Virus record (IMG/VR): IMGVR_UViG_3300009105_000007
Location: 1-44,387 of that record
Strand: one strand, 5' to 3'
DNA from: a virus
DNA: 44,387 nucleotides
Shown here in pieces: positions 4,979 to 44,387 of this stretch; within the stretch, counting starts at the first letter, position 1, and every line of letters starts with the position of its first letter. A program made the position numbers and the translations under genes. The notes under the pieces were generated by a model. It was not told the DNA's origin and did no database searches. It worked only from the letters and a program-made list of their open reading frames with translations.

Positions 4979-5356
4979 TCACCCTCCTGGCAACCCGTGG
5001 TGCTCACAGAAGTCGTCCAGCGTCATGCAGACGACGTATCGTTTCGGCTTCCCTCGTCCCGACGACTGCACGCACACCGCTATCGGCAGTCCGCCGTTTT
5101 TTTTCGCGCTCGCGCGAGCTTGCTCCAGCGCCAGCAGTATCGTCTTGGCTGAAAGGGCGTTCCTGCCCGACTTCACCTCTATGCTCAGCCAATTATGTTG
5201 GATGTCAGGCGCGTGGCCACGGCCACGACCTGTCACCGGGACGCGCTCACCGCCTAGCCGCGCAGCGACTTCGCGCTCCTCGGCTTTCCACGCTTTGTCC
5301 GGGCACATGCGCCCATGTCCTTCCTGCCAACCTGAAACTGAACACTCACGGTGCAT
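4979..5356 (-). CDS. PD-(D/E)XK nuclease, Hjc-like resolvase candidate
   Basis: 125 residues from ATG 5356, which overlaps the stop of the upstream small gene (TGATG) and has AGGGG upstream; ATG 5380 is the other option but lacks a ribosome site. Pattern: a helix with a conserved Glu (KAEEREVA), a basic Gly-rich loop, then the metal-binding core Asp (HAPDIQ, D51) and E-V-K (SIEVKSG, E60 and K62), followed by a helix LEQARA. This order matches archaeal-type Holliday junction resolvases and related phage nucleases. It probably resolves branched DNA during replication or packaging. Confidence 0.75.
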   Translation of the reverse strand: MHRECSVSGWQEGHGRMCPDKAWKAEEREVAARLGGERVPVTGRGRGHAPDIQHNWLSIEVKSGRNALSAKTILLALEQARASAKKNGGLPIAVCVQSSGRGKPKRYVVCMTLDDFCEHHGLPGG

Positions 5357-5499
5357 CACAATTGCCCCTGTCGTTTCCATTCAAGGACTTCGCGATAGGC
5401 GTCGCGCCCCCCGAGACCGTAGCCGAGGTAGACACCTATAGCCATGCCTACCGCCAAGGCGGCGAGTCCCACGATAGCCGCCACGAAACCTGAGATCAT
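5356..5499 (-). CDS. 47-residue one-helix membrane protein
   Basis: ATG 5499 with GGAGGG upstream. Residues 3-30 form a long Gly/Ala-rich hydrophobic helix (SGFVAAIVGLAALAVGMAIG, then VYLGYGLGG), and the last 17 residues are charged. The stop overlaps the nuclease start. Possible holin-like or host-takeover membrane protein; nothing more can be said. Confidence 0.65.
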   Translation of the reverse strand: MISGFVAAIVGLAALAVGMAIGVYLGYGLGGRDAYREVLEWKRQGQL

Positions 5500-5517
5500 C
5501 ACTCCCTCCACGCCTTG

Positions 5518-5787
5518 TCAGGCATTGGTCACCTCTTGGTAATGGTCGAAACAGAGGCGTTGGTATCCGTCTGGCGTAGGCGCTCCACACGTAGCGAAGC
5601 GGTAGCAGCGAGCGCACCCTGTGTCTGGCGGGTCAATCCACGGGTCATCCCAGCCGAGGACCTTGAAGGCGTCCTCCAAGGCTGACAGGCTCCCGCTGCT
5701 CATCCTGCGGTGGCCATCGGTGCCATCGACACGGTAGGCGAACTGCCATGCCACGTCCTCCAAGGCGTCACGATACTTGTCAGGCAT
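5518..5787 (-). CDS. Hypothetical protein with C-terminal Cys/His cluster
   Basis: 89 residues. The N-terminal half is helical (ALEDVAWQFAYRVDG); the C-terminal half has C-x2-C...C...C...H (TGCARCYRFATCG, RLCFDHYQ), probably one zinc site. It overlaps the upstream gene by 8 bases. Unknown function. Confidence 0.65.
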   Translation of the reverse strand: MPDKYRDALEDVAWQFAYRVDGTDGHRRMSSGSLSALEDAFKVLGWDDPWIDPPDTGCARCYRFATCGAPTPDGYQRLCFDHYQEVTNA

Positions 5788-6080: not shown

Positions 6081-6734
6081 TCATTGCAGGTGCCTCATGA
6101 GTTGTTGACCGAGGTATTCGCTGTAGGCGGGCGGGATGGCTTCCCCTATCTCAACCCCTGTCATCCAGTCGATTCCCATCGCTGCCGCGTAGTGTCGTAA
6201 GGCGTTGTGTTCAATCCCGTCCCGTCTACGACTGTTTTTGTTGTACGGATTCAGGGCGTATTCGCGGTGGACACACGGTCCTGGAAGCGGGACAGGGAAG
6301 TTGGTCAGAAACAGTCTGTGACGTTGAACGCGTCGCAAACCGAACATCGTCCCGCACAACATCACGCCGTATTCACCTGTCAGTGTTGGTTGCGTTGGGA
6401 TTGGCGCGCCTGGCACATTCTCAATCACCCACGGCACGTCGGGCATTCGTGTCTCCACCTCGTCAATCAAGCGGGGATACGAACCGTCCGTTAGATGACG
6501 GAGACTCTTAGAGTAGTCCTGACAAGGCGGACTCGCCCACACTGCATCAAACGGCTCAAGGTTCACGGTGAGCGCGTCCTGAAGCACAAAGTCAAACGGA
6601 TACCGAGGCTGCGGCTTGATGTCGAAGCCCACCACGTCGAAGCCAGCACGATGCAGCCCCATTGCAGCGCCACCAGCACCACAGAACAGGTCGGCGATCA
6701 ACGGCCTACCTTGCGCTGCTCTACCTGGGGTCAT
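6081..6734 (-). CDS. C5-cytosine DNA methyltransferase
   Basis: 217 residues; ATG 6734 has AGGAGA upstream, so the longer 233-residue reading is not used. Motif I DLFCGAGG (residues 15-22), motif IV with catalytic Cys SPPCQDYS (C71), motif VI ENVPGA (105-110) and motif VIII QRHRLFLTN are all present, so it should transfer methyl from S-adenosylmethionine to C5 of cytosine. The target-recognition region is very short, as in many solitary phage enzymes. It is the third gene of a cassette with a PP-loop protein and a second methylase. Likely role: protecting phage DNA from restriction. Confidence 0.9.
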   Translation of the reverse strand: MTPGRAAQGRPLIADLFCGAGGAAMGLHRAGFDVVGFDIKPQPRYPFDFVLQDALTVNLEPFDAVWASPPCQDYSKSLRHLTDGSYPRLIDEVETRMPDVPWVIENVPGAPIPTQPTLTGEYGVMLCGTMFGLRRVQRHRLFLTNFPVPLPGPCVHREYALNPYNKNSRRRDGIEHNALRHYAAAMGIDWMTGVEIGEAIPPAYSEYLGQQLMRHLQ

Positions 6735-6742
6735 GGTGTCTC

Positions 6743-7525
6743 CTACGTCCAGCAGTAGCCGCTCTCGCAGCCGTCTGCCCACTCTGGCTCGATCATGGTG
6801 AGTTGTTGGGCTGTGGCGACTTGGTGGAGTGGGCGGCGCTTGCTGCTGAGGAACACAGGCTCGTCACCGCTGCGTAGGTGAGCATCCACCTCACACGCCG
6901 CCTCGAACTCATCCGACGATTCACTAGCCAACATCTGCCACGACTCTCGGGAACGGTAGGGACACCCGACACATGCTGATCGGGGCGGTACGCGCAGTCC
7001 GACTGACCGCACGAGATCATCACACTGCGCTCGCGTCATCTTCTGTTCGATGAGAGGGTAGCGGTGCGTGTCCCGCTTCGCTGGTGCGTCCCGCATCCGC
7101 TGAATCTCACCGTAGTGCAGCCCCATCTGAACGATCTGAGGCGTTCCGTTGCCATATTGCTCTCGTATCCACCGTCGTATCGGCTGGACCTTCCAGCGGT
7201 GAGTGCAGCGACGTAGCAGTTGCCCGCCGCTTGGCGTGAACGCTGGGACGGGGATGGCACCCGAGTCCATCAAGAACGTCGGCAGCACTCCCAGATCGCT
7301 CTTGACCACGACCAACGGCAGCCCATAGGAATCAAGCCACCCCTCCATCTCCTCAACTGCACGGTACGTCGCAGCCCGCTCCCAGCCCGTGTCGGCAAAC
7401 ACCACGACCTCAGCCCTTGGCTCAACCTTGCCCTGTGCGTTGAGGATGGCCAGCGCCATCGACGGCGACCCACCACCAAACGACAGATACTCCACGGCTG
7501 CTCTACCTGGGGAATGGGGGGTCAT
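6743..7525 (-). CDS. PAPS-reductase-like PP-loop protein
   Basis: 260 residues from ATG 7525 (AAGGA upstream; ATGA overlap with the methylase before it). Residues 15-23 (SFGGGSPSM) are a PP-loop that binds ATP or a related nucleotide, 45-49 are ADTGW, C107 sits in RRCTHRWK, and CVGCPY (C185, C188) may hold a metal or iron-sulfur site. This is the adenine-nucleotide alpha-hydrolase/PAPS-reductase superfamily, which includes sulfate-assimilation enzymes and DndC of DNA phosphorothioation. Being coupled to two DNA methylases argues for nucleic-acid modification rather than sulfur assimilation, but that is inference. Confidence 0.75.
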   Translation of the reverse strand: MTPHSPGRAAVEYLSFGGGSPSMALAILNAQGKVEPRAEVVVFADTGWERAATYRAVEEMEGWLDSYGLPLVVVKSDLGVLPTFLMDSGAIPVPAFTPSGGQLLRRCTHRWKVQPIRRWIREQYGNGTPQIVQMGLHYGEIQRMRDAPAKRDTHRYPLIEQKMTRAQCDDLVRSVGLRVPPRSACVGCPYRSRESWQMLASESSDEFEAACEVDAHLRSGDEPVFLSSKRRPLHQVATAQQLTMIEPEWADGCESGYCWT

Positions 7526-8046
7526 AGAAGGTGTCCTTGTGTTTTGCGCTCGACGGTGACGATAGTGTCGTTGTGAGCGCCACCGTGGGGGACCAGCAGG
7601 ACCTCGATCAGTTCGTAGCCCCGGTTGATCCCCATTCCCATGCTGTTCCACCCGCAGCAGATGACGTGACCTCCAGCCCGAATCTTCGGGTGCAGGGCAT
7701 CCTTTACCCGCTTGTACAGTCTGCCGTTCTGTGTCTCTTCGAGTCCTACTGCCAGCCCAACCGACTTGTAGACCTCAGCGATCTGGCGCGGGCTGTACGG
7801 GGGGTCGAACAGAGCGCCGTCCAGGACATCGGGGCATCGCTGTCGAACGAACAACTCGGCATCCATGTGGAACTCTGCCGGTGTGCTCGGGTTGAGGTCG
7901 TTGGTCAGCGACGCTGGACTGTTCCAGCCAGCGAACGGGTCAGCCCAGACCTGACCTGCCGCCACGTACCTGTGTAGAAGGTCACGCACCGGCGACATCC
8001 GAAAGGTCTGATGGTCTGGCATACAGAACACCCTCTCAAACAGCAT
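7522..8046 (-). CDS. DPPY-type DNA methyltransferase
   Basis: 174 residues; GGAG lies 6 bases before ATG 8046. SAM-binding motif I is DPFAGW (residues 36-41) with NDLNP next; catalytic motif IV is DPPYS (81-85). These mark an amino-methyltransferase (N6-adenine or N4-cytosine). The C-terminal part lacks an evident specificity domain. It is the first gene of the modification cassette and couples by ATGA to the PP-loop gene. Confidence 0.8.
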   Translation of the reverse strand: MLFERVFCMPDHQTFRMSPVRDLLHRYVAAGQVWADPFAGWNSPASLTNDLNPSTPAEFHMDAELFVRQRCPDVLDGALFDPPYSPRQIAEVYKSVGLAVGLEETQNGRLYKRVKDALHPKIRAGGHVICCGWNSMGMGINRGYELIEVLLVPHGGAHNDTIVTVERKTQGHLL

Positions 8047-8165
8047 GGTTCACTCCGTCATAGAAGGGGTTGAGGGATTTCCAGGGTATGCGAGTAGTTA
8101 TGTACGAACCCCCCTTACGTAGTAAGGGGTTCGCGTAACTGCTACCCTTGTCAGTTATGTAACGG
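8047..8165. other. Intergenic region with hairpin and GTTA/TAAC repeats
   Basis: No gene fits here. It holds a 12-bp hairpin with a 2-base bulge (8105-8118 pairing with 8122-8133) and several GTTA-TAAC half-palindromes: GTTCGCGTAAC (8129-8139), GTTATGTAAC (8154-8163), and GTTATTCGTAAC (8175-8186, in the end of the ATPase gene). A perfect version, GTTACGCGTAAC, lies inside the ATPase gene at 8769-8780. Likely binding sites for a regulator or replication initiator. Confidence 0.55.
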
Positions 8166-9530
8166 TTACGAAGAGTTATTCGTAACTGAGTCATGGGCTG
8201 CCAGTCCATACATTCCGTCTCCGAGGGCCTGAAACCTCTTGCTCTGGTGCAGGCGTTGCTTGATGGCGTTGCCGTCCTTGGTGGTCGGTGACGCACCGAG
8301 GGCGTCGTAGATGTCGCTGATGTGCAGGCAGTTCGTGGGCGAGGTGTCCAGAACAGTCGCTATCTGCTCGGTCCACGAGGTGTGCTTGCCTACCTCTGCC
8401 ATCTCGGGTACGCTGGCTGACTCAAACTGGATGTAATCTCTCTCGAACGTCACCGTCCAGCCGATAGCCTTCTGTTTGCCGCCACGATTCGACTTCTCAT
8501 GGAACAGACCAATGTCGGCGGTGTTGTCGTCTACCTCCTGGTCCTGCCTGAGTCGCCAGATGTCACGAGCGAGATTCCAGTAGTAGACAGAACCGTAGGG
8601 CTTCCCTGTCTGGCGGCGTGTCCCTTCGTGGGTGAGGTGCGTGATGCCGATGGATGCCACCTTGAGCGCCCGCATGGTGTCGAAGTAGGCGCGGGCCGCG
8701 GTGGCTGGCTTATCACCCTCTTCCCCACCTGCCGCGATGATGGAATCGACTACGCATAACTCGATCTGGTTACGCGTAACTTCACGTTGGATTGACTCGA
8801 AGTGGTCAGGTAGAGCGCCGGACATGCGTCGGTAGAAGATGTGGTCTGCTGGGACGACGGTGTTCGCTCCGTTGGATATGAGTTCCATGACCTCTTGCGT
8901 GTCGTCCGCATCCGATTCCCAGTCGAGGATCATGGACTTCACGGGGCGTGTAGGCACCTCTAGTCCCGGCAGGACAGGCTCACACGTCGCCAACTGCACC
9001 AGCATGGCAAGCGCCGTCGTGGACTTTCCCTGTCCCCCCTCGCCGTAGAGGATGAGCGGTCTGAGCGCGCGCACCATCGGTTCGATCAACCAGGGGGTGT
9101 CTGTTTCCTTGATGTGCGAGGTCAAGTCTGCGCCTTTCTCCTGCGGGTCATAGTCGTTCACCTCTCGGCAGATGTGGTCAATGAACCCTTGCCAGTCCAA
9201 CCCCTTCTGCTTTGCCCGCAACACCCTCACGATGTTGTCTCGGCCTGACATTGAGTGGACGTTCAGCCTGAAGGGTGCTGTGGGCGTCCTGCCGTTGGTG
9301 CTGATGGCGATACGGGCTTCAATGCCGCCTCGCACCGTAGCGATGTGGCTGGCTAGCACTTCCATGTCCCAGTCCGGCCACTTCATCACCAACCTGCCGA
9401 GTTCGTCGGCCTTCGTTACCGGCGGTGCCAGAAGCTCACTCGGCGCATCTTTTCGCGCCTCGCGTGAGGCTTCACGCTTCACCCCCGCGCGCTTCGCGAG
9501 TGCGTCGGCGGCGTCTTGGCGAGAGGTCAT
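8166..9530 (-). CDS. RepA/DnaB-like AAA replication ATPase
   Basis: 454 residues; ATG 9530 overlaps the upstream stop (ATGA). Walker A GEGGQGKST begins at about residue 163 and Walker B ELCVVDS at about 257; a later HEKSNRGGK segment and a C-terminal winged-helix-like region (about 365-440) follow. This is the RecA-fold AAA_25/RepA type used by phages and plasmids for replication or helicase loading. It adjoins the CHC2 primase fragment, and GTTACGCGTAAC at 8769-8780 lies inside it, so the origin could be here. Confidence 0.8.
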   Translation of the reverse strand: MTSRQDAADALAKRAGVKREASREARKDAPSELLAPPVTKADELGRLVMKWPDWDMEVLASHIATVRGGIEARIAISTNGRTPTAPFRLNVHSMSGRDNIVRVLRAKQKGLDWQGFIDHICREVNDYDPQEKGADLTSHIKETDTPWLIEPMVRALRPLILYGEGGQGKSTTALAMLVQLATCEPVLPGLEVPTRPVKSMILDWESDADDTQEVMELISNGANTVVPADHIFYRRMSGALPDHFESIQREVTRNQIELCVVDSIIAAGGEEGDKPATAARAYFDTMRALKVASIGITHLTHEGTRRQTGKPYGSVYYWNLARDIWRLRQDQEVDDNTADIGLFHEKSNRGGKQKAIGWTVTFERDYIQFESASVPEMAEVGKHTSWTEQIATVLDTSPTNCLHISDIYDALGASPTTKDGNAIKQRLHQSKRFQALGDGMYGLAAHDSVTNNSS

Positions 9531-10462
9531 GTGGCTGCTGCTTTGCGCGCCGCTGCCCGCCTGCGTTGGTCGTGCATTGAACACATGCCCTTGACGAGGT
9601 GTTTGCGGTTGCAGTCTGGTACTTCACATAAGCGAACTGGGCGCTTCGCCAGCGTCGCGAGGCGAGCCGCTTGAATCTTGGCTGTGTGCTCGGGCGAACG
9701 GTTGCTGGCCCGATGGCTGCGTCGGGTGTGCTCACAGGCAGCGGAACAAGTGGCCCTCTGCGTCGGTGCCCAGAATCGCTTGTCACATATGGGGCAGTTG
9801 CGGTACTGGCGCTTGGCTCGCGAGCCGCGCCCTTCAGCGTTGGTCTTCTTGACGGTCCTGCTGCGCCGGATGGCATCACATGCCTTAGAGCATGTCTTGG
9901 TTCGGGACGCTCCTGTGTATCGCTCAACCTTGCCGCATGTCACACAGGTGCGAGCCTTCGTGTTCTTGGCGGCGGCTGCGGCGGCGGCTTTGCGGCTGTT
10001 CGCTAGACGCTGTGCGCGTGGGATGGCTCGAATCTTCTCTCGTTGTACCCTCTTGCCATACTTGCTATAGAACCTTGGGCGTGGCCCCGTAGGGGCGTGC
10101 AGGTTCTCTGCGATATGCGGGTACAGTCGGCGCGAACGCTCGGCGAATACGGCGCTTAGTTCCTTTGAGCAAAGAGGCTGTGCCTTGGGCACTTGCAGCA
10201 GGTCGCGTACTTCTTGCAGGTCGATGCCGTGCGCTCGCACCCAGTGCTGCGGTAGTGCTCGGAACGTCCGAGGGTCGTCGCAGTAGGGGCACTGGCCAGC
10301 GGCAACGCCCTGGCGTACTTCCTCGGCAGTCGGCTCTCGGGTTACGGGTCGCGCTCCAAGTTTCAGGGACTCCACTCTAGGCGTGGTGCCCACTCCAGCG
10401 CGGGTCGCCTTTCGCCGCATCGTGCGGTTGCCCGCCCCCGACTTCCCGAAGCCTGTTCTCAC
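9527..10462 (-). CDS. Multi-zinc-finger DNA-binding protein with MucR-like N-terminus
   Basis: 311 residues from a GTG (10462) overlapping the upstream stop. About residues 58-95 (CPYC...H...RAHGIDLQEVRDLL) resemble the MucR/Ros zinc-finger regulators. Three more sites follow: CVTCG...CSKAC, CPICDKR...CSAAC, and C-x4-C...C-x2-H near the C-terminus. The linkers are very basic. It probably binds DNA, perhaps as a regulator or a replication accessory given its place between the primase domain and the ATPase. Confidence 0.65.
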   Translation of the reverse strand: MRTGFGKSGAGNRTMRRKATRAGVGTTPRVESLKLGARPVTREPTAEEVRQGVAAGQCPYCDDPRTFRALPQHWVRAHGIDLQEVRDLLQVPKAQPLCSKELSAVFAERSRRLYPHIAENLHAPTGPRPRFYSKYGKRVQREKIRAIPRAQRLANSRKAAAAAAAKNTKARTCVTCGKVERYTGASRTKTCSKACDAIRRSRTVKKTNAEGRGSRAKRQYRNCPICDKRFWAPTQRATCSAACEHTRRSHRASNRSPEHTAKIQAARLATLAKRPVRLCEVPDCNRKHLVKGMCSMHDQRRRAAARKAAAT

Positions 10463-10974
10463 ATCAACCCCGCCTTCTGTGCCTTCTCGGCCAGAGAGAT
10501 AACGTCGCCACCTTCAGCACACGCCCCGAAGCACCGCCAGTTCTGAGACTCAGGCCACACCACGAAGGACGGCGTGCGCTCGGCATGGAACGGACAGATA
10601 CCCTTCCACGTCTTGCCTACGTGACGCATGTCGGTGAGTTCCTGGGCAAGTTCAACGATGTCGGTGCGCTCTCGTATCTCGTCGTACCACGCGCGGGTGC
10701 GCCCAGAGGGAACGACGTTTCGCCCTGAAACCTTCGGCACCTTGCGCCCAGTGCGGATCGTGTGGGGCGGCTCGCCTGAGAACTCAGACAGCCAGTGCTC
10801 GACTCGGGCTTGGTGCACGGCGGTGCGCCTGCGAGGGTCGATGATGTCTAGCCACTCGCCCTCGGTACGCTCACGGAAGAAGAACCCGTGCTCGTCCTGC
10901 TCGATAGCCCAGTGGTTGGGCGAGAGGCCGACGATGCGCTTGTCGGCGGTGAGATATGGGGACTGGACGATCAA
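10459..10974 (-). CDS. Lone CHC2 zinc-finger primase domain
   Basis: 171 residues from a TTG (10974) that overlaps the stop of a tiny upstream gene. The C-terminal third is the DnaG-type zinc-binding domain: DIVELAQELT...KGICPFHAERTPSF...RCFGACAEGGDVI (C127, H130, C148, C152). No TOPRIM catalytic domain follows; the gene ends soon after. The N-terminal ~100 residues resemble nothing I know. It probably guides primer synthesis with a host or separate catalytic subunit, or acts as a regulator. Confidence 0.75.
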   Translation of the reverse strand: MIVQSPYLTADKRIVGLSPNHWAIEQDEHGFFFRERTEGEWLDIIDPRRRTAVHQARVEHWLSEFSGEPPHTIRTGRKVPKVSGRNVVPSGRTRAWYDEIRERTDIVELAQELTDMRHVGKTWKGICPFHAERTPSFVVWPESQNWRCFGACAEGGDVISLAEKAQKAGLM

Positions 10975-13370: not shown

Positions 13371-13634
13371 CTACCTCCATCCCCAGAGAATCCGCTCCAC
13401 AAGCGTTAGTGGGCGGTGCAATGAATGCGCGTGCAGCGTGCCGCGTTCGCCGCGCTTCGTCGTGCGCTTACGTAAGCGAACTGGCTTCTCGCAGAACGGG
13501 CAGATGCCCCACGGGGTGTCGTCATATTCCGTCGTGAAGGCACCGTCGAAGAACGCGCCAGTCTGCGGCTGCTTCCCACTGCCGGGGCAGGGGTTGGCGA
13601 AGCGCCGCGCCTTACTCCAGGGCCAGCGGATCAT
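13371..13634 (-). CDS. Small zinc-binding hypothetical protein
   Basis: 87 residues, ATG 13634 in ATGA overlap with GGGAG upstream. Basic, with CPGSGK and CPFCEKPVRLRKR: one CxxC plus a lone Cys, a possible zinc site. A perfect 14-bp palindrome (13465-13478, CGCTTACGTAAGCG) lies inside the gene. Confidence 0.65.
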   Translation of the reverse strand: MIRWPWSKARRFANPCPGSGKQPQTGAFFDGAFTTEYDDTPWGICPFCEKPVRLRKRTTKRGERGTLHAHSLHRPLTLVERILWGWR

Positions 13635-17327: not shown

Positions 17328-17365
17328 ACTGTCCTCCTCCTCTCTGGCCACCCGGCCACGCGGCG

Positions 17366-17809
17366 TCATAGACGGACGCCACGCCGCGAGTAGCGTGGTT
17401 TTCCACCTCTACCCCTGGCGTGGCGGCGAGCCTTGCGCTTCGGCGACTTGCGCCACGTCCGCGCAGGCTCGCTCACCATCGCTTCTGCCTTCATCCCGGA
17501 GACTGCGGCTTTCCAGAACCGAGCGGCCTTAGACGTTTGGCCACGCACACACACATCTGCGAATATGCGGACTGCACGTCCGCGCCCGTCCGGCATGTGG
17601 TATTGAGCCTCTGCCCCGATCTCAGACCTTCGGAACCGTGCAGGCATCGGCTGCGAGAAGCGCACAGCGCGATCCCGCTGCCATCTGCTTGGTTCTATGC
17701 GTTCGATCTTGCCCCTTACCATCTCGTGCCCACCCTCAAACTTGCGTTGCTTGGGTGAACCGTTCCGGTATCGGAACCGACGCGGCCTATTGAGAGTTTT
17801 GCGGAGCAT
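17366..17809 (-). CDS. Very basic hypothetical protein
   Basis: 147 residues; GGAGGG sits just before ATG 17809 (ATG 17722 is an internal alternative). Strongly basic throughout with an Arg/Lys/Gly tail, so likely to bind nucleic acid. The central part (MVRGKIERIEPSRW, then RAVRIFADVCVRG) looks structured. No family recognised. Confidence 0.6.
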   Translation of the reverse strand: MLRKTLNRPRRFRYRNGSPKQRKFEGGHEMVRGKIERIEPSRWQRDRAVRFSQPMPARFRRSEIGAEAQYHMPDGRGRAVRIFADVCVRGQTSKAARFWKAAVSGMKAEAMVSEPARTWRKSPKRKARRHARGRGGKPRYSRRGVRL

Positions 17810-19238: not shown

Positions 19239-19436
19239 ATGAGAACGATGACCGAATACAGTCGAGAGCGCGCCAAAGCTGCAAAGCCGCGCTGGCAACG
19301 GATCGCCATGCTCCACAAAGGCGGATCATCACTCCGAGACATCGCCGCACTACTCACTGCCGAAACCGGCAAACCCATCACACACCAGGCAGTGGCCAAA
19401 CTCATCGCCAAAGCCCGCCGCGAAGGACTGCTCTAA
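19239..19436 (+). CDS. Small HTH regulator
   Basis: 65 residues; ATG 19239 lies only a few bases from a GATAGT -10 and has no Shine-Dalgarno, which suggests a leaderless message. Residues 27-62 (KGGSSLRDIAALLTAETG, then ITHQAVAKLIAKAR) form a helix-turn-helix. Its place beside nested inverted repeats suggests it is the Cro-like or repressor-like switch for the two divergent operons. Confidence 0.7.
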   Translation: MRTMTEYSRERAKAAKPRWQRIAMLHKGGSSLRDIAALLTAETGKPITHQAVAKLIAKARREGLL

Positions 19437-19969: not shown

Positions 19970-20090
19970 GGGCACGAGCGCGCCCGCGCATAATGCGCGC
20001 GAGGGGCACGAGGGCAGGGGGTAGTCCCTATGCGCGCGTGCGTGCGTGTGGTCGCGGTACCACCCTGTAACTTTGATCTGTCGCGTGGTG
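19970..20090. repeat. Repeat-rich intergenic region
   Basis: Contains GGGCACGAG twice (19970-19978, 20004-20012), ATGCGCGCG twice (19993-20001, 20030-20038), and the palindrome GCGCAT-A-ATGCGC (19986-19998). It lies just after the small-terminase-like gene, so it may be a packaging (pac/cos) or origin site. No gene fits. Confidence 0.5.
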
Positions 20091-20110
20091 GTGACGCGTC
20101 ACGGTATAGT
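20091..20110 (+). promoter_or_regulatory. Palindromic operator next to a TATAGT promoter
   Basis: A perfect 12-bp palindrome GTGACGCGTCAC (20091-20102) lies 2 bases before a -10-like TATAGT (20105-20110), about 19 bases upstream of the next ATG (20129). No good -35 is present, so an activator or alternative sigma factor may be needed, or the palindrome is a repressor site covering the spacer. Confidence 0.6.
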
Positions 20111-20128
20111 GGGAGGTGGGGGTGTGAC

Positions 20129-42215: not shown

Positions 42216-44387
42216 ATGGCAATACGATTGACAGGAACCTTCCGGGACGACGAGGACGCGAAAGTCACGGGTGTCGTCGGCTCGATGCGGGACGCTGGGA
42301 CGACCACCGAACGCCACACCGACACGTCTGGCGCTGACGGCCTCGTTGAACTCACCTTCGCCACGGACGCGCTCTACGACGCCCGATTCCAGTACGGCAG
42401 CAAATACTGGACGTGGAACGGCGGCGACGAGGTGCAGGTCAAGACTATGCAGACATGGAACTCGGATGCCGACGAGTACACGTTGTCCGTGATCCGAGGG
42501 GAGGACGCTGCCGATCAGTCCGTTGAGGTCGCGGAATTCTACGCCCTGTACGGCAACAACAACGCGCAGGACAACGACGAGGGCTATATATCTCTGGGCC
42601 TCGGCAACGACAAGACGGACGACATGCAGAAGTGGGAGGCAGCGCGCCTGACCTGGGTGGGCACGGATGTCTCGGACGGTTCAGAGGACGGCAGGCTGGA
42701 CATCGGTGTGATGACGGGAGGGTCGCTGGCCGACGAACTGGCTCTGACCGGGGCGGCGCTGTACCCGTCTACGACTGACGGCTTGAATCTTGGCGGGAGT
42801 TCCAACGAGTGGGCGCACGTCTACGCGTCCGCTGCCACGATTACCGGGGACATAACTAACACTGGTGACATCACCATCGACGCTGATAACAAGGGCTTGG
42901 TGCTCGGTGATGGGCAGGACGTTGACCTGTTCTTTGACGGCACTGATGTCGTCATGCAGATAGCAGCGACAGCGCAGATGGTGGTAGCCCGCAGCGCCGT
43001 GTCGCCTATCTACGCAAACGCCATCATGGAAATCCAGCACAACGGGGCCAATGCTGCACTTTCGCTGGCGACCACTGCCGCCTCTGAGGCGTTCATCCTC
43101 GCAAGTTCAGGTTCTTCCGGGAACGACGTGAGCGATGGGACTGATCTGTTCGCCTTCTACGGGCGCGGCTATCACACTGCTGCTTACTACCACTGTGGGA
43201 AGTTCAAGTTGGAGGTGGACGGCGCTTGTGGTGCAGGTGATATGCCGGGGCGGTGGGTGTTCGAGACGACACCGGCTGGCGGCTCTGCCACAGCCGAGGC
43301 GTTCCGCATCTCTGCGAACAAGACATTCACCTCTCAAGGCGTTGGCTACATCCCTGGCATCGACCTCGTGGCGACAGGCAACCGCATCGACCTTGACACC
43401 GACAACGACACGTCGATCCGGGCGTCGGCGGACGATGTAGTCAAGTTCGAGATCGCAGGCACAGACGAACTAGTCCTGAACGCCACGGAGTTGACGCCAG
43501 AGGCCAACGGCGGGCTGGCACTTGGCACGAACGTGCTTCAGTGGGGCGGGCTGGAACTCAAGGCAGGTGGCGGGATCTACTGGAACAACCACGCCAATGC
43601 CCTCCTCGAGACCTCGGGGAAACTGGTGGCTACTGGCGACCTAGTGGCGAACGACGCGGCGGGGCCGGGTTTCATTAACGAAGCCGCGACGACGACCAAT
43701 CCCACCCTCGTGCCGAACAAGGCCGAAGAGGACACGGGGATCGGCTGGGCCAGCGACACGCTGCACTTCGTCGGGGGTGGGGCGAGCCTCGGCAACATCA
43801 GCGCGACAGCCCTGACGCTGCCAGCCCAGCTGGACATCGAGGGCTACGCGGCTATCGGGAACGGGAGCGCGCTGAGTGCGGACTACACTCTATCTGTGGA
43901 CCGAGACTTCAGCAGCACGGGCACAGCTGCCCAGTTGCACGTGGCGGGTGTCACGACAGTAGCGACAAACCAGGATGCTTTTGGACAAATCATTGGCACA
44001 GACCTTTCGTTCACGACGCACGCCGCAGGCACACACGGCATAATTGCTGCTCTGGGCCTGTACCCGTCTGCTGGCCTCGCCGGGAACTCTGACATCACAG
44101 TTCTGGCGACCCTGTACGTGAACAATGCCCCAGTGTACTCGGGCGGTGGCGCTGCTGCCACCACGGCATCAATCTACGTGGGGGATGGCCCCGTTGTCCT
44201 GGCTGGCACCACAAACTCAAGCAGTGCCACAACGGGCGAACTGCAAGTAGCGGGGGGTGCGGGCTTCGCCAAGGACGTTTACCTTACTCAAGCCATCAAC
44301 ACACCCGACGGTATGGGCGCAGACGGCGAGCAGTTGACCTCGGGCGGCAACAGCGTGGCGATGGACTGGGCTGCGGCTGGCTCGCTG
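42216..44387 (+). CDS. Main tail fibre with S74 domain, runs across the contig ends
   Basis: ATG 42216, GAGGAA upstream, open to the end of the window (724 codons, no stop) and continued from position 120 to the stop at 408-410: about 820 residues in all. N-terminal ~110 residues (TGTFRDDEDAKVTGVVGSMR, YDARFQYGSKYWTWNGGDEV) are likely virion-attachment domain; the long middle is Ala/Gly/Thr/Asp-rich beta structure typical of fibre shafts; the last ~98 residues are the S74 chaperone. This fibre probably binds the host receptor. Confidence 0.85.
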   Translation, partial: MAIRLTGTFRDDEDAKVTGVVGSMRDAGTTTERHTDTSGADGLVELTFATDALYDARFQYGSKYWTWNGGDEVQVKTMQTWNSDADEYTLSVIRGEDAADQSVEVAEFYALYGNNNAQDNDEGYISLGLGNDKTDDMQKWEAARLTWVGTDVSDGSEDGRLDIGVMTGGSLADELALTGAALYPSTTDGLNLGGSSNEWAHVYASAATITGDITNTGDITIDADNKGLVLGDGQDVDLFFDGTDVVMQIAATAQMVVARSAVSPIYANAIMEIQHNGANAALSLATTAASEAFILASSGSSGNDVSDGTDLFAFYGRGYHTAAYYHCGKFKLEVDGACGAGDMPGRWVFETTPAGGSATAEAFRISANKTFTSQGVGYIPGIDLVATGNRIDLDTDNDTSIRASADDVVKFEIAGTDELVLNATELTPEANGGLALGTNVLQWGGLELKAGGGIYWNNHANALLETSGKLVATGDLVANDAAGPGFINEAATTTNPTLVPNKAEEDTGIGWASDTLHFVGGGASLGNISATALTLPAQLDIEGYAAIGNGSALSADYTLSVDRDFSSTGTAAQLHVAGVTTVATNQDAFGQIIGTDLSFTTHAAGTHGIIAALGLYPSAGLAGNSDITVLATLYVNNAPVYSGGGAAATTASIYVGDGPVVLAGTTNSSSATTGELQVAGGAGFAKDVYLTQAINTPDGMGADGEQLTSGGNSVAMDWAAAGSL
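44269..44387. repeat. Direct terminal repeat, right copy
   Basis: Exact copy of 1-119 at the 3' end, inside the fibre gene just before its S74 domain. Read with the left copy it closes the genome. Confidence 0.95.

Follow-up and report, generated by a model that had tools for sequence, protein, structure and literature searches.

At the bacteriophage lambda origin (ori-lambda), tandem sites for the O protein, the iterons, are associated with a replication gene and an easily melted AT-rich segment, and each iteron is in itself an imperfect inverted repeat that can fold into hairpins (PMC7466680). The O gene of lambda contains four such iterons, near-identical and 18-19 bp long. Repeats with an AT-rich unwinding element are likewise found at oriL and oriR of Bacillus phage SPP1, of which oriR is intergenic, and AT-rich islands in phages also mark regulatory regions (PMC6316719). 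In SPP1, gp38 binds direct repeats, and about 13 kb separates the two origins. The iteron origins of plasmids RK2, P1 and R6K pair a cluster of initiator sites with a DNA unwinding element (PMC4980987).

The locus described here, a candidate origin of an uncultured bacterial virus, resembles ori-lambda in having tandem putative initiator sites near and in a replication gene beside an easily melted AT-rich segment. It differs in that the sites form two dyad units (45 and 35 bp) in a gap downstream of the gene, and no homologue of the lambda O or P proteins was recognized. In contrast to SPP1, the repeats are dyads, 0.6 kb separates the clusters and homologues of gp38 or gp39 were not recognized, and compared with RK2, P1 and R6K the locus has no regular direct-repeat array, no DnaA boxes and no recognized Rep protein. 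As in iteron origins, repeated candidate sites are largely confined to one place (8 of the 17 GTTAYG copies in the genome and both dyads fall within 0.7 kb) and an AT-rich, easily melted segment is adjacent. Strict iterons, however, are near-identical direct repeats at regular spacing; because these are missing, the region should not be classed as an iteron origin, and the "iteron-like" label given in a previous sequence-only reading is not retained.

A further point of comparison comes from Squashvirus (Microbacterium phages Quammi and Phinky), where a long non-coding gap opening with a C-run/G-run hairpin lies behind a primase/helicase gene whose product is about 25% identical to the ATPase of our phage, a similarity not significant by itself. 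Unlike the present locus, the Squashvirus gap has no GTTAYG sites, is not among the AT-richest stretches and has no keto-skew axis. The gaps of Quammi and Phinky (386 and 560 bp; 5045-5429 and 5225-5783, respectively) are unannotated, similar to each other and start with a C6/G6 hairpin; each may be an RNA or an origin.

Genome and gene context

The window, i.e. the whole stretch of DNA analyzed, is the 44,387-nucleotide IMG/VR record IMGVR_UViG_3300009105_000007. The same 119 bases stand at both ends (1-119 and 44269-44387), and a second contig, IMGVR_UViG_3300009311_000060, matches at 100% identity along its entire length and continues over the join. This makes the record the complete, circularly assembled genome of an uncultured bacterial virus, with a unit length of 44,268 bp. 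Early genes occupy the minus strand from about 19.1 down to 1.8 kb, and late genes the plus strand, starting at 20 kb and crossing the join to end near 1.75 kb.

The gene bordering the locus (8166-9584, minus strand) encodes a RecA-fold/AAA_25 ATPase that is likely a replicative helicase (Pfam AAA_25, E=3.8e-15; PHROG 906, DNA polymerase/primase, E=1e-4). Confidence in its predicted structure is too low for use; in the low-confidence model the C-terminal domain of about 75 residues has a three-helix, possibly winged-helix look, and a fold search with this domain model gave no significant match. A DnaG-type zinc-ribbon protein is encoded at 10459-10974 on the same strand, and within 9527-10974 a multi-zinc-finger/HNH-like gene lies between the zinc-ribbon and ATPase genes. 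Squashvirus phages carry a single annotated primase/helicase gene, and the two genes seen here may represent a primase-helicase that a homing endonuclease-type insertion has split. No member of an initiator family and no helicase loader was recognized in the phage.

On the other side, the locus adjoins a DNA methyltransferase-like gene (7522-8046, minus strand; PHROG 11619, E=1e-36), part of a modification cassette at 6081-8046 that also includes PAPS-reductase-like and cytosine-methylase-like genes. Fourteen contigs carry relatives of the methyltransferase-like gene, 43-62% identical, and the ATPase has no relative encoded in any of them. The element is missing upstream of the gene in all 14, and we rejected the idea that it travels with the methyltransferase cassette.

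Relatives of the ATPase were absent from the viral, genome, phage (50,697 records) and plasmid (72,556) collections. Searches with the ATPase, a Walker-A DNA pattern, TerL (as single sequence and as alignment), the methyltransferase and direct dyad patterns returned only the identical second contig, a 5-kb fragment (61% TerL identity), relatives of the methyltransferase that lack the element, and two chance matches to the patterns. Judged by these comparisons, the phage belongs to a lineage with almost no sequenced relatives; the lineage is new, the principle of its candidate origin probably not.

Clustering of half-sites

The sequence-only reading had described four versions of one GTTA...TAAC palindrome (8129-8139, 8154-8163, 8175-8186 and 8769-8780) and had linked them to a site at 20091-20102. 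The sequences and coordinates of all five are correct, and the four sites are indeed present; their common unit, however, is the half-site (A)GTTAYG and not a 12-bp palindrome. The spacer between GTTA and TAAC varies (2, 4 and 4), and GTTCGCGTAAC at 8129-8139 contains one half of the site only, its GTTCG being an arm of a C/G hairpin. A further half-site at 8753-8762 (CGCATAACTC), beside the palindrome at 8769, had been overlooked.

Eight GTTAYG copies lie within 8097-8780, as do 7 of the 11 genome copies of AGTTAY. In a scan of all 6-mers with at most one transition-degenerate position, AGTTAY was the most clustered 6-mer of the genome (Poisson 3.6e-12). None of 60 block-wise dinucleotide shuffles produced a cluster as strong, the best reaching 4.6e-10. 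The half-sites occur on both strands in steps of 39, 18, 6, 5, 10 and 8 bp, and are absent from both promoter-like regions of the genome (19.1-19.2 and 20.1 kb). Since the blind motif-cluster scan, applied to controls at the 200-bp scale, ranked the known lambda origin first and the P22 origin fourth, it has some power to find origins.

Gapped GTTA..TAAC palindromes (3 seen against 0.33 expected) are weakly significant taken alone, and perfect palindromes of 12 bp or more, of which the genome has seven, are not rare here. Shuffled sequences often contain clusters of at least three copies of some tetramer, and we rejected gapped-palindrome clustering as sole evidence. The same background, together with discovery by looking in a single genome, is what speaks for the region having no function as a unit, i.e. 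for AT-rich, hairpin-rich intergenic DNA whose clustering was spotted after the fact. We consider this highly improbable, given that the top one-degenerate 6-mer exceeds all 60 shuffles and that independent extremes of stability and folding coincide at the locus.

The second cluster, CGCATAACTC and GTTACGCGTAAC at 8753-8781 (plus strand), lies in the ATPase coding region, 0.6 kb from the gap cluster. The GTTACGCGTAAC palindrome is read as the codons GTT ACG CGT AAC (V-T-R-N), and both coding sites are built from uncommon synonymous codons. Upon synonymous recoding of the ATPase gene, the exact 12-mer arises in 0.7% of recodings and two gapped sites in 28 of 20,000.

The link to 20091-20102 through an ACGCGT core did not survive: the common core is at chance level, as are genome matches within two mismatches, and a common operator was rejected. 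The surrounding region (20080-20115), ahead of the late genes, contains the perfect palindrome GTGACGCGTCAC just in front of a TATAGT -10-like element, and this palindrome is plausibly an operator unrelated to the GTTAYG sites.

Dyad units and hairpins in the intergenic gap

The proposed origin core is the 119-bp gap (8047-8165) between the ATPase stop and the methyltransferase start, which lies downstream of the ATPase gene and not upstream. Nowhere else in the genome is a 60-, 120- or 150-bp stretch as rich in AT, and at the 60-, 100- and 140-bp scales the gap is the least stable duplex of the genome, by about 4 SD. Dyad unit 1, AGTTATGTACGAACCCCCCTTACGTAGTAAGGGGTTCGCGTAACT (8096-8140, plus strand), places outer half-sites around a C/G-rich hairpin core in the plus-strand layout AGTTATGTACGAA-CCCCCCTTACGTAGTAAGGGG-TTCGCGTAACT, and its self-complementarity was reached by none of 3000 shuffles. 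Dyad unit 2, AGTTATGTAACGGTTACGAAGAGTTATTCGTAACT (8153-8187, plus strand), carries plus-strand GTTA half-sites at 8154, 8165 and 8175 (11 and 10 bp apart), and its right end coincides with the final codons and the stop codon of the ATPase gene. The two units, 45 and 35 bp long and in tandem, have common ends, and their alignment beats that of every one of 5000 shuffled pairs; the genome has no other AGTTAYG..CRTAACT unit.

The hairpin reported earlier at 8105-8133 is real, although it is merely the core of a larger imperfect hairpin of 27 pairs (8083-8148, plus strand) that holds unit 1. A second hairpin of 10 pairs with a loop of 6 (8163-8188, plus strand) lies within unit 2, and its pattern, GTTACGAA..TTCGTAAC, has one match in the genome where none is expected. 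When 120-nt windows are corrected for composition, no folding z-score in the genome is more extreme than that of the plus strand at 8081-8200 (-5.5).

Such folding (z -4.2 to -5.1), the end of the ATPase gene inside the second hairpin, and the C6/G6 hairpin directly 3' of the primase/helicase stop in the distant Squashvirus phages would also suit an RNA element, in which hairpins in the minus-strand mRNA serve as a terminator or attenuator, a processing site or an mRNA stabilizer. We nevertheless regard this as unlikely. It is the non-transcribed plus strand that folds better (-49.5 versus -41.2 kcal/mol), a U-G pair of the outer stem on that strand becomes an A-C mismatch in the mRNA, neither hairpin is followed by a U-tract and the gap has no U-tract terminator, an Rfam search gave no match, and the cluster at 8753-8781 is left unexplained.

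Looping regulators typically use dyad sites together with an auxiliary cluster at a distance such as the 0.6 kb seen here, and the arrangement at this locus could accordingly be read as an operator cluster, at which a phage repressor or activator bound to the half-sites controls the downstream modification genes, with 8753-8781 as an auxiliary looping operator. The methyltransferase, PAPS-reductase-like and cytosine methylase genes do lie directly downstream of the sites, and the phage encodes a small HTH protein (19239-19436); the sites are nevertheless absent both upstream of this HTH gene and at the 20.1-kb promoter-like region, and variable half-site spacing is unusual for a dimeric repressor. 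Furthermore, no sigma-70-like promoter was found on either strand of 8047-8250, where an unusual host sigma factor could still act. An operator cluster is therefore a possible reading, but not a probable one. In the earlier suggestion of an origin or autoregulatory site, the autoregulatory half is weakened by a gap downstream of the ATPase gene, by the missing sigma-70-like promoter and by the absence of sites from both promoter-like regions, whereas the origin half gains support from the least stable duplex, the tandem dyads and a keto-skew axis at 7.6-9.8 kb.

Sites of the parS-like and attP kinds, too, typically show repeated dyads within an AT-rich gap. A partition (centromere-like) or recombination (attP) site of a lysogenizing phage would have this appearance, but is very unlikely here: tyrosine (PF00589) and serine (PF00239) integrases are absent from the genome while controls were positive, a tRNA search of the genome found none, and no ParA/ParB-type gene was recognized among the proteins scanned.

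Strand-composition skew

Purine and GC skews track gene orientation, turning at 1.7 and 19.2-19.7 kb. The GC skew, proposed earlier as a check, has its extremes at 1.7 and 19.7 kb, and GC skew alone was rejected as an origin signal. The keto skew (G+T-A-C), in contrast, does not follow gene orientation, and has its minimum at 7.5 kb (the lowest 2000 positions are mostly at 6.1-8.6 kb) and its maximum at 31.5 kb, compared with an antipode at 30.3 kb. After gene orientation was removed by regression, all of the best antipodal axes among 222 rotations fall at 7.6-9.8 kb, and the axis at the element is within the top seven of the 222. Within the minus-strand gene block, the best A-T skew change point is at 8051 (p=0.005). 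Confidence intervals are broad, spanning 4.9-11.0 kb for the change point. When both ends are left free, the best keto-skew model pairs 20.0 with 31.5 kb, and 7.5-8.0 kb is not significantly worse.

Because the same test fails on its controls, placing the known origin of lambda at rank 117 of 243 and that of P22 at 171 of 209, the keto-skew axis was downgraded from proof to suggestive evidence, supporting an origin without being diagnostic of one. A module change at 8 kb, i.e. acquired methyltransferase genes, could give the same skew signal.

Origin reading and proposed mechanism

A site cluster, two dyad units and the weakest duplex of the genome coincide here, with a helicase-type ATPase gene alongside. 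We propose, as the most likely reading and with about even confidence, that this region is the replication origin of the phage. This reading is based on half-site clustering beyond all 60 shuffles, on dyad units that occur only here in the genome, on a stretch that is at once the AT-richest, the least stable and the best-folding, and on the adjoining AAA_25 ATPase and DnaG zinc-ribbon genes. It draws further on the suggestive A-T change point at 8051 and keto-skew axis at 7.6-9.8 kb, on the recovery of the lambda and P22 origins, first and fourth, by the same blind cluster scan, and on a genome without integrase and a gap without sigma-70-like promoter or U-tract terminator. Counting against it are the irregular half-site spacing and the presence of only two units, unlike classical iterons, as well as the failure of the skew test on lambda and P22 and the occurrence of AT-rich islands at regulatory regions of phages such as SPP1.

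At such an origin, a phage-encoded DNA-binding protein would bind the half-sites cooperatively and bend or loop the stretch that separates the two clusters. A phage-encoded initiator is expected, as the gap is without DnaA boxes: TTWTNCACA is absent, and TTGTCCACA with one mismatch occurs at chance level, with no copy in the gap. Binding would help to open the AT-rich hairpin-forming segment, in or next to the hairpin, where the ATPase, with the DnaG-type zinc-ribbon protein, could be loaded to serve as replicative helicase, leading to bidirectional (theta) copying of the circularized genome. The binder could be the ATPase, through its C-terminal domain, or some other early protein. In the former case, an ATPase of the hexameric-helicase family (AAA_25) would recognize its own origin, its C-terminal domain binding the variably spaced half-sites in two hairpin-forming dyad units behind the gene and in a cluster inside it, and one protein would act as initiator and helicase; we consider an origin of this type improbable. 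A 1-kb candidate origin with explicit half-sites would make initiation testable in this lineage, and would show how replication starts in a phage that combines an AAA_25 ATPase with a separately encoded DnaG-type zinc ribbon but has no recognized initiator or helicase loader.

Other structured elements

Three further elements lie outside the locus. At 14 bp, CGCTTACGTAAGCG (13465-13478) is the longest perfect palindrome in the genome, and its halves, CTTACG and CGTAAG, resemble the hairpin core at 8114-8127. Another region, 17361-17480, shows one of the strongest folds on each strand (z -4.5 and -5.2); it lies within an apparent coding region and contains an inverted repeat at 17377-17425. Finally, a 17-bp GC-rich inverted repeat at 1760-1798, where late and early genes converge, is a probable two-way terminator.
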